This document shows positions 5,537 to 10,614 of a stretch of 38,060 nucleotides of DNA, in pieces. Numbering within the stretch: the first letter of the stretch is position 1; each line of letters begins with the position of its first letter. The translations under genes and the position numbers were made by a program. Source of the stretch: Cytophagia bacterium CHB2 (lineage in GTDB: Bacteria; Zhuqueibacterota; Zhuqueibacteria; Zhuqueibacterales; Zhuqueibacteraceae); assembly GCA_030263535.1 (NCBI GenBank), contig SZPB01000012.1:1-38060 (forward strand), read 5' to 3'. The notes under the pieces are model-generated. The model saw nothing but the letters and a program-made list of their open reading frames with translations. It did no database searches and was not told the origin of the DNA.

Positions 5537-6787
5537 TTATTTTCGAATTTTCACTTCCTTCATATGAATAAAGTCTCTCATATCCGAAATAATCACTTCC
5601 TCGCCTTCTTGCAAGCCCGCCATCACTTCAAAATAATCGAAGCCAACCAGTCCGATGCGCACCGGTGTGCGAACCGCTGCGCCGTCCCGTATCACAAAAA
5701 CCTCGTGTTCGCCTTCGCCGGTCACGAACGGGCCGCGTTTCACGCGCAGCGTTTTTTCTTTGGCTGCCGTGACCACGTAAACGTCGACGCGCAGATTTGC
5801 GCGCAAACGTGGGCTGGTCTTGTCTTCCAGCGCGACGAGAAAAGTGACGATGCCGTTTTGAATTGCCGGCAGCACGCTGGCAATCGTGCCGGCAAGATTG
5901 GTTTCATCGTCGATTTTCACGTTGACCGGCAAACCGGCAGCGAGCCGGGAAGCATGCACATCCGAAACCGTGGCCTCCACGCGAAAGGCGTTCAAGTCCG
6001 CGATTTTCGCCAGCATTTCGCCCTTGCCAATCGTGACGCCTTCTTGCGGCACCACCCAGGTGAGCACGCCGTTGCGATCGGCTTTCGTCGCCGCCAATTC
6101 GAGCTGGCGCGCAGCTTCATCGCGCTCGCCGCGCGTGATTTTGGTTTCGAGCGTCACGCCTTCCAATTGGTTTTGCAGCGATTGTTGCGTATTGGCGATT
6201 GAGTTTTCGAGTTGCGCAAATTCGAGGTAAGCAATCTCCAGTTCGAGCTTGCTTTGCCGGACCTGCTCTTTGCTGCTCCCGCCAATCTGAAACAGCTTTT
6301 CTTCTTGCTCGACTTTGGTTTGTAGATAATCAATGCGCAGTTTCTTGATTTGAAGTTCGCTGCGCAAATCGTTCAATGTCTTGTCAAGATCGATTCTAAG
6401 CTGGGCCTGGCGGTTCTCCTTGAGGGCGAGTTGTTCATTAAGCCGGGCCAGCGCAAGTTTGGCTTCGCTGACATCCAACTCGATAATCGGCTGGCCGATT
6501 TGTATTGTTGTGCCGGCCGTGCGCAGAATGCGCAGCACACGCGTGTCCAGCGGGCTGGAGATGACTTGCTCGAACTCCGGTACCACAGTGCCTGCGGCTG
6601 AGATCGTTGCAGCCATTGGCCCGGCTTCGACTTTCGCCGTGCGAATGCGGTTCTTGCTCACCGAAGGCGAGATCCAGCCGGGAATCCAAAACAAGAGCGC
6701 TGCCACAGCCGCGACAATCACCCCGAGACGAACGTATCGCTTCGTGAGTTGCTCTTTCAAAAAAGCCGGATCAAGTGGTCGATCCAC
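5537..6787 (-). CDS. HlyD/MacA-like periplasmic adaptor (membrane fusion protein)
   Basis: A 416-residue adaptor that would link the inner-membrane ABC exporter to an outer-membrane channel. One N-terminal membrane anchor (about residues 20-39, ending FWIPGW) is followed by a barrel-sandwich/lipoyl half around AGTVVPEFEQVISSPLDTRV. A long alpha-helical hairpin rich in Leu, Gln, Glu and Lys (roughly 110-215) comes next, then the second lipoyl half with VVPQEGVTIGKGEMLAKI and beta-barrel and membrane-proximal domains. The start is GTG at 6787, preceded by AGGAGA. It is the first gene of the export operon; any promoter should lie in 6788-6986. The family is certain, the cargo unknown. Confidence 0.94.
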   Translation of the reverse strand: MDRPLDPAFLKEQLTKRYVRLGVIVAAVAALLFWIPGWISPSVSKNRIRTAKVEAGPMAATISAAGTVVPEFEQVISSPLDTRVLRILRTAGTTIQIGQPIIELDVSEAKLALARLNEQLALKENRQAQLRIDLDKTLNDLRSELQIKKLRIDYLQTKVEQEEKLFQIGGSSKEQVRQSKLELEIAYLEFAQLENSIANTQQSLQNQLEGVTLETKITRGERDEAARQLELAATKADRNGVLTWVVPQEGVTIGKGEMLAKIADLNAFRVEATVSDVHASRLAAGLPVNVKIDDETNLAGTIASVLPAIQNGIVTFLVALEDKTSPRLRANLRVDVYVVTAAKEKTLRVKRGPFVTGEGEHEVFVIRDGAAVRTPVRIGLVGFDYFEVMAGLQEGEEVIISDMRDFIHMKEVKIRK

Positions 6788-6986
6788 TCTACAGTCTCCT
6801 AAAACGTGATGAAGTCAAGTTTTGGTTTTTGAGCACGAGTTGTCATATGAACAGCGCTTGCGTCAACATTTGCTCGCGACAACTGCAAGCAATATGCCGT
6901 TTTTTAAGAACTTGATTAGAATGATATTAGCGAGATATGCAGGATCCGAAAGATGTTCGACTTCGAACGGCGGGTGTTCAGAATCA
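6788..6986. other. Intergenic region upstream of the export operon
   Basis: AT-richer than its surroundings. It should contain the promoter for the adaptor-ATPase-permease operon reading leftwards, but I cannot pick convincing -35/-10 boxes. The short open frames here have no recognisable content. Confidence 0.3.
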
Positions 6987-7130
6987 GAGTTAGAGGCAAG
7001 ACCGTTCACTTAACATTTCGTTCGTAGTCCCGGCCCATTGTGGGCCGATTCTAACGCAAATAATTTCAATCTTCCTGCAGTGCCCCACGAGCGGGCAGGG
7101 CTACTGAGTGAACGGTATTGGAGTTAGAGG
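6987..7130. mobile_element. Nested palindromic element, copy 1 (MITE-like)
   Basis: Three layers are visible. The outermost is a 10-base direct repeat GAGTTAGAGG at 6987-6996 and 7121-7130. Inside is a perfect 10-base inverted repeat, ACCGTTCACT at 7001-7010 and AGTGAACGGT at 7107-7116. The 81-base core at 7024-7104 begins GTAGTCCCGGCCCATTGTGG and ends GCGGGCAGGGCTAC, with complementary ends. The core has the same length and the same ends as the core at 10118-10198. Direct repeats flanking inverted ends are what a non-autonomous transposable element leaves. No transposase is present, so mobilisation in trans is inferred. Confidence 0.65.
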
Positions 7131-7317
7131 GGTTGAGCGAGGCAAATCAAAGCTTGTGGAGGGAATGCTATTTTTGCCTTGCCAAAATGAGTTGAATGAT
7201 TTTCTTAAAATGAATGGCTATCAAGGTGAGTTTGAATTTCATAATAACCTCGTCGAGATGAAGTCGGCTTGGGCAAAAGATGTGTATTACGAAATTTATT
7301 GCCCAAGCCGAATGTAA
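7108..7317 (+). pseudogene. AT-rich plus-strand open frame, probable gene fragment
   Basis: This is the only plausible coding stretch on the plus strand, about 69 codons from a GTG inside the palindromic element to a TAA eight bases before the convergent gene at 7326. The later part (from MLFLPCQNELNDFLK to the end) reads like protein, with AT-rich codons unlike the GC-rich neighbours. The first residues are encoded by the repeat, and TGA directly precedes the GTG. The simplest reading is the 3' end of a foreign gene whose front was lost or replaced when the element arrived. No family recognised. Confidence 0.35.
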
Positions 7318-7325
7318 ACCAATTT

Positions 7326-8558
7326 CTATGACAACGACTCAATGCGATCCAACGCCTCTCGTGCCGCGGCCAGGCCAATCTCCGGATTTAAATCCAAATC
7401 CTTCTCGGAGAGCAGCATATATTTAACCGTATTGTCTTCGCCGCCGGAAAATGCGGTAACGATATCTGCGAGCATCGTGTATGCCCCGCGCGTTTGATAT
7501 GCGCCCTCGACCACCTGCCCCAGCGTGGAATAATTGCGCGCCGCGAATTTCGAGCAATTGATCGCATGATCGTTGTGATTGATATAACCTTCGCCGACAA
7601 TTACCTGGCAGCCCTCCGACCAGTTGCCCACCGCGGTTTCACCCTCGCCGCCCCAATGCACGTTAATCGAGTAATTGCGTTCGAGCGGGCGGGAAAGATC
7701 CGCGTCGGTCAGCAGCATATCGCTCGAACGTACCACCAATACGCCCGAGTTCATGGGTTTAAGCCCGTGGTAAACACGGCTCAAATCCGACAGTTTATGC
7801 CAGCCAAAGCGATAGATATGTTGCCCCAGCGTTAAAAACGGCGGGCCGGCAGGATGCTGTGAATATCCCGGCTCGGTCGAACCATAAAACTTGAAGGCCA
7901 GGCCGTTGATCAATAAAACGAACACATCATCAAACTCACGCACACCGGGCCGCGCCTCATGCCGGCGTATGCCGATCATGTGGATCTTGTTCGGATCCAA
8001 ATCCCAATTGGCAACGTTCACCGTGTCTGATTTCTGGGCGAATTGCTTGACTTTGCGCAGCATGGGATTGGGATTGGTCAGATATTTCTGTTTGACGAGG
8101 CCCAGCAAGTTCATCCACTTGCTGAATTCACGGCTTGGATTTGCGCCCGAAAATGCCGTCCAATCCGCTTTCTTGCTGGCCGCTTGCCAGCGTTTGATAT
8201 GCTGAAACGAGTTTGGGCCGAGTTTGCCATCCGGAAAGCCGATGCTGCTGTCGTTCTCGACCGTGCGAACATATTCTTGAAAGAGGCGTATCGACGCGGC
8301 AGTACGATAACCGCAAATGCCGTCGATTTTTCCCAGCGGAAAGAATCCCGCGTCTTTCAGAAACCGCTGCACCTCCGCGACCTTCATGGCGTTGCCCGTC
8401 GCTTTCTCGAACGCAACCCAATGATCGTCCCGTTCCCCGCGCAGTTTCTTCTGGTTTTTCCAATCCTGCTCGACGCCGGTTACACGATGAGCGTAATCAA
8501 GGTATTCTCCCAGAGCCGAAGATTGCACCTCGGGATCGTATGCTCCTAATGAAATCAT
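7326..8558 (-). CDS. Peptidoglycan-binding protein with a YkuD-like His...SxGC motif
   Basis: 410 residues with no signal peptide or membrane segment. Residues 58-98 look like a PG_binding_1 domain (VAEVQRFL, KIDGICGYRTAASIRLFQEY). The C-terminal half has LINGLAFKFYGSTEPG, then GQHIYRFGWHK, and INVHWGGEGE...NWSEGCQVI with His301 and Ser314-x-Gly-Cys317. That spacing resembles the His/SxGC catalytic signature of L,D-transpeptidases (YkuD), but overall fold identity is not certain. The start at 8558 is chosen over the codon at 8585 because AGGAGG stands seven bases before it. It is the last gene of a three-gene cassette. A secreted or lysis-released cell-wall enzyme is a reasonable guess; a phage-type wall enzyme is an alternative. 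Confidence 0.85.
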   Translation of the reverse strand: MISLGAYDPEVQSSALGEYLDYAHRVTGVEQDWKNQKKLRGERDDHWVAFEKATGNAMKVAEVQRFLKDAGFFPLGKIDGICGYRTAASIRLFQEYVRTVENDSSIGFPDGKLGPNSFQHIKRWQAASKKADWTAFSGANPSREFSKWMNLLGLVKQKYLTNPNPMLRKVKQFAQKSDTVNVANWDLDPNKIHMIGIRRHEARPGVREFDDVFVLLINGLAFKFYGSTEPGYSQHPAGPPFLTLGQHIYRFGWHKLSDLSRVYHGLKPMNSGVLVVRSSDMLLTDADLSRPLERNYSINVHWGGEGETAVGNWSEGCQVIVGEGYINHNDHAINCSKFAARNYSTLGQVVEGAYQTRGAYTMLADIVTAFSGGEDNTVKYMLLSEKDLDLNPEIGLAAAREALDRIESLS

Positions 8559-8565
8559 GGTGACG

Positions 8566-8571
8566 CCTCCT
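8566..8571 (-). promoter_or_regulatory. Ribosome binding site AGGAGG deciding the 8558 start
   Basis: A perfect AGGAGG on the minus strand, seven bases before ATG 8558. It rules against the codon at 8585 as the start of the peptidoglycan-binding protein. Confidence 0.75.
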
Positions 8572-8683
8572 GGTTGGTTCAACAACAGCTTGGCCGTTGC
8601 TTTTGCATTTGGATTTTTGATCGGAAAGCGAGGGCCGGCTATCGCGTTAATTCAGTTGTTTTATGGCGGCGCAGATGGCCAAA

Positions 8684-9409
8684 CTATTTCCCCACCAGAT
8701 AACCCACGCCAAAGCCCGCTGCCGCGCCGGCAACCCCGCCAACGGTTACTTTGAACCACCGGCTCGCGACTTCTTTGCGATATTTCTTGTCGAGCGCCTG
8801 ATATTCATTCCACAAATTATCATAGGTACTGCGAATGCTGTCGGCCTTCATGGTCAACAGTCTCACTTCATCATCTTTAAGCGTCATCGAGCTGCTGAAA
8901 CTCGCGATGGTGCTGTCTTTGAGCGCGATTTCACTGCCGCGTTTATCATTTTCAGCTTTTATCTCTGCAACTTCCGCTCCGAAGAAGCGCGGCGCTAACA
9001 AGCCGTGCACGCCATCCGAGCGTTGCACATCCCAAAACTGGCCGGCCCAATGCGGAAAAGCATTGTCTAACTCGCCTGTGACTTCCTTCGCTTCCCACAA
9101 CTTGTCCAGGCGCGCCAGGGTTTTCGCGTGTTCACGCTGCAAATTTTCGAGTTTGTGCTGGATCTCTTCGCGTTCCGCGGCAAGCAGGGCTTCGCGTGCG
9201 CGCACGTCGTTCAGCACCACGTCGAGGCTATCGACATAGCGCCGCATCGAGGCGTCGCGGCGCTCCAGCTCTTCCATTTTATCCTTCTGGGCCGCCAGCT
9301 TGGCGCGGGTATCTTTCAGAGAAGACCAGATGCTCCATCCCACCGCCACGCCGACAATCAGCAAAACGCCGGTAATGATCCACGAGAAAATGCCTTTGTT
9401 ATCAGCCAT
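8684..9409 (-). CDS. Membrane-anchored coiled-coil protein with glycine-zipper tail
   Basis: 241 residues, family not recognised. One membrane segment near the N-terminus (about 8-28, SWIITGVLLIVGVAVGWSIW) is followed by a long heptad-like stretch rich in Leu, Glu, Lys and Arg (about 30-110). A middle region with WAGQFWDVQRSDGVHG precedes a second helical region. The C-terminus is Gly/Ala-rich (GGVAGAAAGFGVGYLVGK) and resembles a glycine zipper able to insert in or pack against a membrane. Its start overlaps the upstream stop by eight bases (ATGGCTGA), so translation is probably coupled. GAGGTGAAAC precedes the ATG. Its place between a small soluble protein and a cell-wall-binding protein suggests an envelope role. 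Confidence 0.85.
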   Translation of the reverse strand: MADNKGIFSWIITGVLLIVGVAVGWSIWSSLKDTRAKLAAQKDKMEELERRDASMRRYVDSLDVVLNDVRAREALLAAEREEIQHKLENLQREHAKTLARLDKLWEAKEVTGELDNAFPHWAGQFWDVQRSDGVHGLLAPRFFGAEVAEIKAENDKRGSEIALKDSTIASFSSSMTLKDDEVRLLTMKADSIRSTYDNLWNEYQALDKKYRKEVASRWFKVTVGGVAGAAAGFGVGYLVGK

Positions 9410-9641
9410 GTTTCACCTCAAGGCGATTGCCGTTTTTAAGAATGCCCAATTTTTGCGCGAATTCCTCCACCACGGCTTCCTCTCCCGAAAGCAAGCGATA
9501 CGAAATGGCAAAACCCTCCGGCACAGCGTTGAACAACTCGATCTCGGTTTGTCGCGTCTCGACTTCCAGCAGGAGCTGGCGAATCACCCACTTGGCGCCG
9601 CGCGCCAGCTTGGCGGCTTCCGTGCGATTGTGTTCCGACAT
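9402..9641 (-). CDS. Small soluble protein, first gene of the wall-associated cassette
   Basis: 79 residues, not recognised. It is predominantly helical, with a hydrophobic/acidic alternation (WVIRQLLLEVETRQTEIELF) and no signal peptide. The start MSEHNRT at 9641 is chosen because AGAGGC precedes it; the open frame continues to 9794 but the extra residues look like read-through of non-coding DNA. Its stop overlaps the next gene by eight bases, so the two are probably co-translated. It could be a cytoplasmic partner or regulator of the membrane protein. Confidence 0.7.
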   Translation of the reverse strand: MSEHNRTEAAKLARGAKWVIRQLLLEVETRQTEIELFNAVPEGFAISYRLLSGEEAVVEEFAQKLGILKNGNRLEVKHG

Positions 9642-10084
9642 AGATCTGCCTCTTTGGTTTGCATGAAATGGCTGCTGCACGCCGTCATGATTTACAGATA
9701 ACATGGCATTTCTTAAGGTTATTTTCAATGAGAAAATTTGCGGCGCGTGTGTTTCGCAAAGCCATTCTCGCCGGCTCAAACGCAAAATTGCCACACCTTC
9801 TTATCTCGCGGCGAGGCTAGGCTTGGGGGGCAGAGCTATCTTCAAAGACACGGATCGGAAACCAAAATCTCAGAAATTACCGGCGATAGAATTATTTCAA
9901 GTTGATAGAGTTAAATTTGTACACTGCCCCGGCGCACGTCGTGTATTGTTTAAATAGATTCAGCTATCGGCCAAAATTTCACAAGCCTAATGAATTTTTC
10001 TGAAACCATGCTCTCAAAATTAGATTTTTTACAAACAGCTTGAACGAATAAAGCGCGTGTCGCCTTTTGCCCAATACTACAACG
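9642..10084. other. Non-coding spacer before palindromic element copy 2
   Basis: About 440 bases of AT-rich sequence. Short open frames exist on both strands but have no recognisable domains, no good ribosome binding sites and no codon pattern like the neighbours. It probably holds the promoter of the three-gene cassette at its left end. No clear promoter boxes seen. Confidence 0.35.
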
Positions 10085-10231
10085 TTACAGCGTTTTTCAT
10101 TTGGATGAACAGAGTTTGTAGTCCCCGCCCCTTGTGGGCGGCTGTTGAAACCATGAAATTCGCGGTTGCAACAATGCCCCACAAGGGGGCAGGGCTACGA
10201 ATCCTGTACACGCATTTAAAAAACGCTGTAA
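10085..10231. mobile_element. Nested palindromic element, copy 2 (long hairpin)
   Basis: The ends TTACAGCGTTTTT (10085-10097) and AAAAACGCTGTAA (10219-10231) are perfectly complementary over 13 bases, and weaker pairing continues inward. The 81-base core at 10118-10198 begins GTAGTCCCCGCCCCTTGTGG and ends AAGGGGGCAGGGCTAC, matching the core of copy 1 at its ends and in length. Inside it, TGTTGAAACC pairs with GGTTGCAACA. Almost the whole unit can fold as one long stem. Outer arms differ between the two copies, so the core appears to be the transposed or amplified unit. Confidence 0.7.
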
Positions 10232-10398
10232 GTCGCATTCTGACGGGACTCTATTTCACAAAGGCCCTCGGGCAGAAATGCGATATGCACAATTTCAAAC
10301 TGGATTGAACGAGTATGACGTTTTGCAGTTGGATAGCCGTGCCCCAAAAGCATGCGATGGCTTTTGAGCAGCCAGCATACCATGTGCATGAAGAAGAA
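10232..10398. other. Non-coding spacer
   Basis: No gene, clear repeat or promoter recognised between the palindromic element and the golvesin remnant. Confidence 0.3.
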
Positions 10399-10614
10399 TT
10401 ATGGGCTGGGGTGATTTGAAACCGGTGTATTGCCAAGATAAACCAGCTTAATGGCATCGGCAATCACCGGGCCATTGGCTTTGTTGGAGACGGTGATGCT
10501 AGCCTCCGCGCCGCGTTGGAACGAGTAATGGCCAAGCGAATTCCATCGGCCGGAATTGCGGTTTTGATCAACCAAGATTATTTTTTCACCGTTGGCGTGA
10601 CGGTTGAGATAGTC
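10399..10614 (-). pseudogene. Golvesin C-terminal-like domain remnant
   Basis: About 71 codons encode the second half of a golvesin-type domain: ILVDQNRNSGRWNSLGHYSF, then ITVSNKANGPVIADAIKLVY. It aligns by eye with VNQRNNVGRWNSLGTYLF and TVVADAIKFVY at the end of the secreted protein at 20410-22284. The first half of the domain, any signal peptide and any start codon with a ribosome site are missing. The frame is open only through overlap with the unrelated membrane-protein gene at 10623-10940. It is most likely the 3' stump of a secreted protein gene left by a deletion or rearrangement. Confidence 0.75.

Follow-up and report, generated by a model that had tools for sequence, protein, structure and literature searches.

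How does one small palindromic core come to lie inside unrelated outer inverted arms, and do two such copies on either side of a gene block mark the ends of something that moved? The question is raised by the first 38,060 nucleotides of contig SZPB01000012.1 of Cytophagia bacterium CHB2 (hereafter the window). This contig is number 12 in a draft genome of 6.98 Mb that we call the host (G000). An earlier note on this DNA described two 81-base cores with shared ends and unrelated outer arms, supposed that the core inserts into or builds on pre-existing hairpins, and suggested that the three genes at 7326-9641 arrived as a cassette between the copies. Here we report that the core belongs to the REPINs, in which two repetitive extragenic palindromic (REP) hairpins, here of the GTAG type, are paired in inverted orientation, and that each copy is very probably a composite miniature transposon in which the REPIN is the sole cargo between the terminal inverted repeats of a larger transposon.

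The core is an abundant GTAG-type REPIN

The two cores (7024-7104 and 10118-10198) are each 81 bp long, run from GTAG to CTAC and have common ends. Alignment of the cores (72% identity over 85 bp, ungapped) and comparison of their arms bear out the description of similar cores in unrelated surroundings. The REP consensus GTAGNCCNNNCCCNNTGNGGG, allowing at most one mismatch, matches three times in the window and never in 100 shuffles, and it finds 82 half-sites in the host genome (48 forward and 34 reverse) as compared to none for a reversed-pattern control, so the recurrence of the core is not due to chance. The host yielded 55 paired cores flanked by 30 bp or more, mostly 80-83 bp long, and single composite elements are scattered across the whole genome; for the core of copy 2, full-length or near full-length matches elsewhere in the host are 96-99% identical. 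The relatives that bear the core are mostly candidate division KSB1 records. All copy counts come from searches of draft genomes in which many contigs stop inside the core, and are lower bounds. The ends of host contigs C52, C90, C236, C255, C366, C405 and C474 fall inside core or shell, which indicates that the repeat breaks the assembly and that copy numbers are underestimated.

Each REP carries a 5' GTAG and an imperfect palindrome, and the repeated unit consists of two REPs in inverted orientation, as in the 55 paired host cores. The GTAG tag, imperfect hairpin and inverted pairing are hallmarks of GTAG REPs and REPINs (PMC3733652, PMC3116915), and on these grounds the core is a REPIN.

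The outer arms are the ends of different transposons

Aligning the flanks of all copies defined families of outer arms, which we call shells. Among the 55 host cores, 47 lie in a shell of type A (18), B (11), D (9), C (3) or another type (6), and 8 have no recognised shell; the same core is found in at least three shell families beyond A and B. The families are as follows.

Shell A, TTACAGCGTTTTT... (ends CAGCGTTTTT...): 18 host copies including window copy 2; TA duplication
Shell B, CAATACCGTTCACTTA...: 11 host copies including window copy 1; 10-bp duplications centred on YTAR
Shell C, CAATGCCGTTTCCTTA...: 3 host copies; a diverged B with the same 27/16-nt arm asymmetry
Shell D, CTAGTGCACTGTTACC...: 9 host copies
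Shells F, H, I and E: few host copies; with relatives added, 8 for H and 7 for F

Shells A, B and C have terminal inverted repeats, are shorter than 300 bp and have no coding capacity, as expected of miniature inverted-repeat transposable elements (MITEs). The two window copies, one B and one A, comprise the following features.

6987-6996, no strand: left target-site duplication of copy 1, GAGTTAGAGG, identical to 7121-7130
6997-7120, + strand: copy 1, probable composite MITE of B shell and REPIN, 124 bp, with ends CAAGACCGTTCACTTA and TGAGTGAACGGTATTG; belongs to the family with 10-bp duplications
6997-7023, + strand: left B-shell arm of copy 1, 27 nt, common to 11 host copies
7024-7104, + strand: REPIN core of copy 1, 81 bp, with GTAG hairpin REPs at 7024-7047 and 7081-7104 (inverted)
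7105-7120, + strand: right B-shell arm of copy 1, 16 nt
7121-7130, no strand: right target-site duplication of copy 1, GAGTTAGAGG
10086-10087, no strand: left TA target duplication of copy 2; where the sibling A copies L005, L026 and L020 are absent, a single TA stands
10088-10228, + strand: copy 2, probable composite MITE of A shell and REPIN, 141 bp; shell shared by 18 host copies; near-perfect end-to-end hairpin
10118-10198, + strand: REPIN core of copy 2, 81 bp
10229-10230, no strand: right TA target duplication of copy 2, by analogy with sibling copies

The arms reported earlier are present in the sequence: copy 1 has perfect 10-base inverted arms (ACCGTTCACT/AGTGAACGGT) with a 10-base direct repeat outside them, and copy 2 has perfect 13-base arms (TTACAGCGTTTTT/AAAAACGCTGTAA) at 10085-10097 and 10219-10231 and does fold almost end to end (-38.8 kcal/mol, z = -6.9 versus shuffles). 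Copy 1 with its shell also folds more strongly than shuffles (z = -4.2). Outer inverted arms scoring at least 22 flank 34% of 100 non-redundant cores from the host and relatives. The figure falls to 5% if the left flank of one copy is combined with the right flank of another, and to 0.2% if the flanks are shuffled.

Several observations identify the arms as terminal inverted repeats of different transposon types. Elements in B and C shells (n = 14) are bordered by 10-bp duplications whose left and right sides agree, on average, at 8.3/10 positions versus 4.0/10 for cross-paired flanks, and YTAR occupies duplication positions 4-7 in 12 of the 14. A 10-bp duplication lies within the usual range of the IS4 family. 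Moreover, identical 16-bp B ends bound a 3.1-kb element (L080, G000:C408:1466-4574) whose first open reading frame encodes a transposase of the IS4 family; another gene of this family comes after it and apparently interrupts it. Shell B is thus an IS4-family MITE whose ends are common to the autonomous-type IS4 element at C408. From its TA duplication alone, shell A would be IS630/Tc1-like. The core keeps a single orientation and constant junctions within each of A, B, C and D, and for 40 of 47 copies the nearest inner spacer belongs to a copy in the same shell (10.9 expected).

The core is not the only content of these shells: in B, D and A-like shells its place can be taken by different palindromic modules (L077, L092, L108). 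The B shell at L077 lacks the GTAG core and contains a palindrome flanked by TTA that adjoins the core in L055 and L076, while a TGTCATTC...GAATGACA palindrome occurs in D shells and in one A-like shell (L092, L095-L099, L105, L108). The TTA-flanked module reads GGATT..TTTAAATAACTT...GATCC (L077, L055, L076, L100). These two extra modules, sometimes together in the same shells, make up a general pattern in which small elements are nested like Russian dolls. One D shell of 75 bp is nearly empty (L086); it could be either a pre-insertion form or a deletion product, and has the same length in strain KSB J3.

These data bear on two other accounts of the shells. One is that all shells are ends evolved for the REP-associated tyrosine transposase (RAYT) itself, such that the whole composite would be a RAYT element with variable terminal inverted repeats, like the TIRtrons of PMC3733652; the same paper describes Pseudomonas GTAG-1 units that are attached to unrelated stem-loops. 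We give this account very little credence, because shells hold other modules in the place of the core, B ends bound an IS4-family gene, and two kinds of duplication (TA and 10 bp) are, on general knowledge, unexpected from a single-strand Y1 transposase. The other is that selection maintains the hairpins for a regulatory function, as terminators or mRNA stabilisers, and that a single structured RNA has diverged into the different shells, with arms co-changing by compensation. Strong folding would fit, as would the B and C arms, which differ and are both still palindromic. This too is very unlikely given the target duplications, the empty sites described below, the identical B ends on an IS4-family element and the shells with other contents, and a scan of 6700-10600 against Rfam returned no match. 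Single copies may nonetheless have a regulatory role.

Shell and core are absent together at empty sites

A further question is whether the core enters hairpins that are already in place or travels with its shell. The near-identical strain KSB J3 (QEVD01, G079), whose orthologous loci are 94.5-100% identical to the host (mostly 96-99%), allowed this to be addressed. For 22 host sites, of which 20 contain a core, the two flanks were joined and searched in KSB J3, and contiguous matches were then aligned. Five clean empty sites were found (three A, one B and one C), and in all five the shell, the core and one target duplication are jointly absent: a single TA is kept at L005, L026 and L020 (shell A), one GTGTTAGAGG at L071 (shell B) and one CCGTCCGGCC at L053 (shell C). 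This joint absence indicates that shell and core move as one unit and that, at these loci, the core did not enter a pre-existing hairpin. Because the 10-bp repeat is single in the sibling B and C empty sites, and because the two sides match as described above, GAGTTAGAGG is the target-site duplication of the copy 1 shell. Judging from the duplications, the difference between strains probably reflects gain in the host and not precise loss in KSB J3.

The five empty sites are among 17 scored A, B or C copies, the filled ones being L003, L004, L007, L015, L022, L042, L046, L055, L056, L079 and both window copies. No empty site was found in KSB J3 among 16 scored core copies outside these families, in D, F, I and E shells or shell-less (L021, L029, L030, L041, L044, L045 twice, L047, L048 twice, L051, L052, L060, L064, L066 and L068). 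The difference is nominally significant (Fisher p = 0.026), with a grouping chosen post hoc. Seven loci (L008, L016, L019, L043, L057, L069 and L070) were left out for want of an unambiguous ortholog flank pair in KSB J3, and for L139 versus L053, L142 versus L027 and L187 versus L050 intergenic divergence is too high to define junctions.

The hypothesis that the core itself is mobile and inserts, locus by locus, into chromosomal hairpins already there draws on real observations: cores lie in many different palindromes, 8 of 55 have no recognised shell, a RAYT is present in relatives, and similar placement is known in other species (PMC3733652). Its first part stands, in that one core family does occupy unrelated palindromes. 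However, the five sites that lack both shell and core refute locus-by-locus insertion at those loci, no empty site was found among the 16 scored copies outside A, B and C, and core orientation and junctions are fixed in each larger shell family. As a general account it is very improbable, and it survives solely as an ancient capture step, in which the core may have entered a hairpin-like MITE one time for each shell family.

By analogy with their siblings, we infer that window copies 1 and 2 moved in the same manner. Copy 2 has no alignable empty site in the relatives, only a filled KSB J3 copy; in a more distant genome (G001) the interval matching copy 1 has no element, at a divergence that precludes an exact junction.

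The KSB J3 orthologs of L004 and L007 are without 33-36 bp (internal decay). Between core and right B arm, the KSB J3 ortholog (L282, G079:C289) of L079 (G000:C211:9768-9890) has 83 extra bases, which are either another insertion or an older, longer form of the element. Tandem arrays of partial or whole REPINs with 72-bp and 96-bp periods were seen at L074 (G000:C94:14932-15228) and L047 (G000:C180:2100-2275); at L047 the host has two units and the KSB J3 spacing fits one, a tandem copy-number change.

The genes between the copies

The gene at 7326-8585 encodes a 419-aa protein with a peptidoglycan-binding domain, and the products of the two genes at 8684-9641 are 241 aa long, with a weak match of TPR-like type, and 79 aa long, with no match. 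That these genes and the two copies form one mobile cassette is suggested by position only, and we regard it as barely credible. Copy 1 and copy 2 are independent insertions of different transposon types, each with its own ends and duplications; there is no recombinase among the three genes; and single composite elements are scattered genome-wide. In G001, moreover, the distance from the HlyD gene to the 8684-9641 genes is 315 bp with no element inside, such that two of the three genes are present without an element at the copy 1 position and the 7326-8585 gene is absent from the interval. In G005 the three genes match as a single contiguous stretch. The supposed arrival of a cassette is thus not supported, and the position of the copies on either side of the genes is most readily taken as chance in a genome so rich in repeats.

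A RAYT gene between the same REPs in sister genomes

REPINs ordinarily rely on a transposase of their own. Two sister genomes carry a RAYT gene bracketed by arrays of the same REPs. In G006 (L194, C205) the RAYT reading frame at 1994-2494 lies between REPs at 1334-1978 and 2491-2990, and in G005 (L193, C71) the same REPs occur on both sides. The sister-genome RAYT protein scores 94.6 bits against an NCBIfam RAYT cut-off of 80 bits. No close relative of it turned up in the host draft, the best host match being 30% identical, and the host Y1 transposases were rejected as evident partners, as they are IS200-like or are RAYTs without this core nearby. IS200-like transposase genes at L031 and L034 lie amid their own short tandem-like repeats (units like AACGCCGGAGGCGTGACATGTTTATAG around L031), which are unrelated to the GTAG core.

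Model for REPIN spread as transposon cargo

We favor a model in which a REPIN was captured between two transposon ends, and the outer ends of the resulting composite would be recognised in trans by a transposase; for type B an IS4 gene exists, broken in the host. Copy 1 would have used the ends of an IS4-like element with a 10-bp target duplication and copy 2 those of a TA-target element, with shell and REPIN transposing as a unit and leaving a shell-specific duplication, as the empty sites of sibling copies show. Internal decay of the composites would follow. The single core orientation, constant junctions and same-shell spacer likeness fit one capture per shell followed by amplification of the composite, and each shell family thus probably captured a REPIN about once, in the past. 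The route was perhaps the entry of RAYT-mobilised REPINs into the hairpin tip of a MITE consisting of terminal inverted repeats only. The central (dyad) position of the REPIN would then reflect either RAYT targeting of the hairpin tip or ascertainment, whereby only insertions that spared the ends were amplified. A broader and distinctly tentative proposal is a two-tier system, in which RAYT-mobilised REPINs prefer the hairpin tips of unrelated MITEs of this kind and several DDE-type transposases then spread the REPIN by proxy, so that REPINs might outlast the loss of their own transposase.

Several points weigh against the composite model. Both window copies are filled in KSB J3 (L146), which therefore shows no empty site for either; the element at C408 has an interrupted IS4-like gene; a search of the host with the A end pattern found no autonomous A element; and the shell consensus sequences derive from the same copies they describe. 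In addition, all compared genomes are metagenome-assembled drafts (host contamination estimate, 4.18%), and drafts or metagenome bins may misassemble repeats.

The spread of REP elements is, according to PMC8266576, poorly understood. The empty sites found by comparing two near-identical strains reveal a further route, with REPINs as cargo in MITEs of different transposition chemistries, and the number of REPINs in a genome must accordingly be read differently as a sign of RAYT activity. The natural filled and empty pairs offer material for testing REPIN spread and the central position of REPINs in palindromes.

Comparison with known systems

REP dimers inside longer palindromes are known in three species (Di Nocera 2013, PMC3733652), where the palindromes were treated as targets and REP-free palindromes were not found in two of the three. 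In the open-licence literature searched, whose scope takes in few subscription papers, there was no report of a REPIN moving at strain level as cargo of several unrelated MITEs.

The elements described here resemble REPINs and REPtrons (Bertels and Rainey 2011, PMC3116915; PMC3733652) in their GTAG tag, imperfect hairpin, inverted pairing and many copies, in the RAYT bracketed by the same REPs (here in sister genomes) and in having some copies without a shell. They differ in that no close RAYT was found in the host and in that most host copies lie inside transposon ends, moving with them where movement is visible. The GTAG-15 dimers of Anabaena variabilis and CGTC-1 dimers of Halothiobacillus neapolitanus (PMC3733652, section 7) likewise place a REP dimer centrally in a longer palindrome; however, each of those species has one palindrome type, read as a target, whereas this host has several unrelated shells in one genome, and alternative shell contents, duplications and empty sites mark the outer palindromes as transposon ends. 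With IS4-family MITEs the B copies share ends that bound an IS4-family transposase gene, 10-bp duplications and a lack of coding capacity, and with TA-target MITEs of the IS630/Tc1-mariner type the A copies share short inverted ends, a TA duplication and a lack of coding capacity, while the end-pattern search in the host gave no autonomous partner for them. In both cases the interior differs, being a REPIN, and in B copies not a remnant of the insertion sequence. What appears to be new is therefore one REPIN family in several unrelated shells, with alternative shell contents, shell-specific duplications and strain-level movement as a unit.

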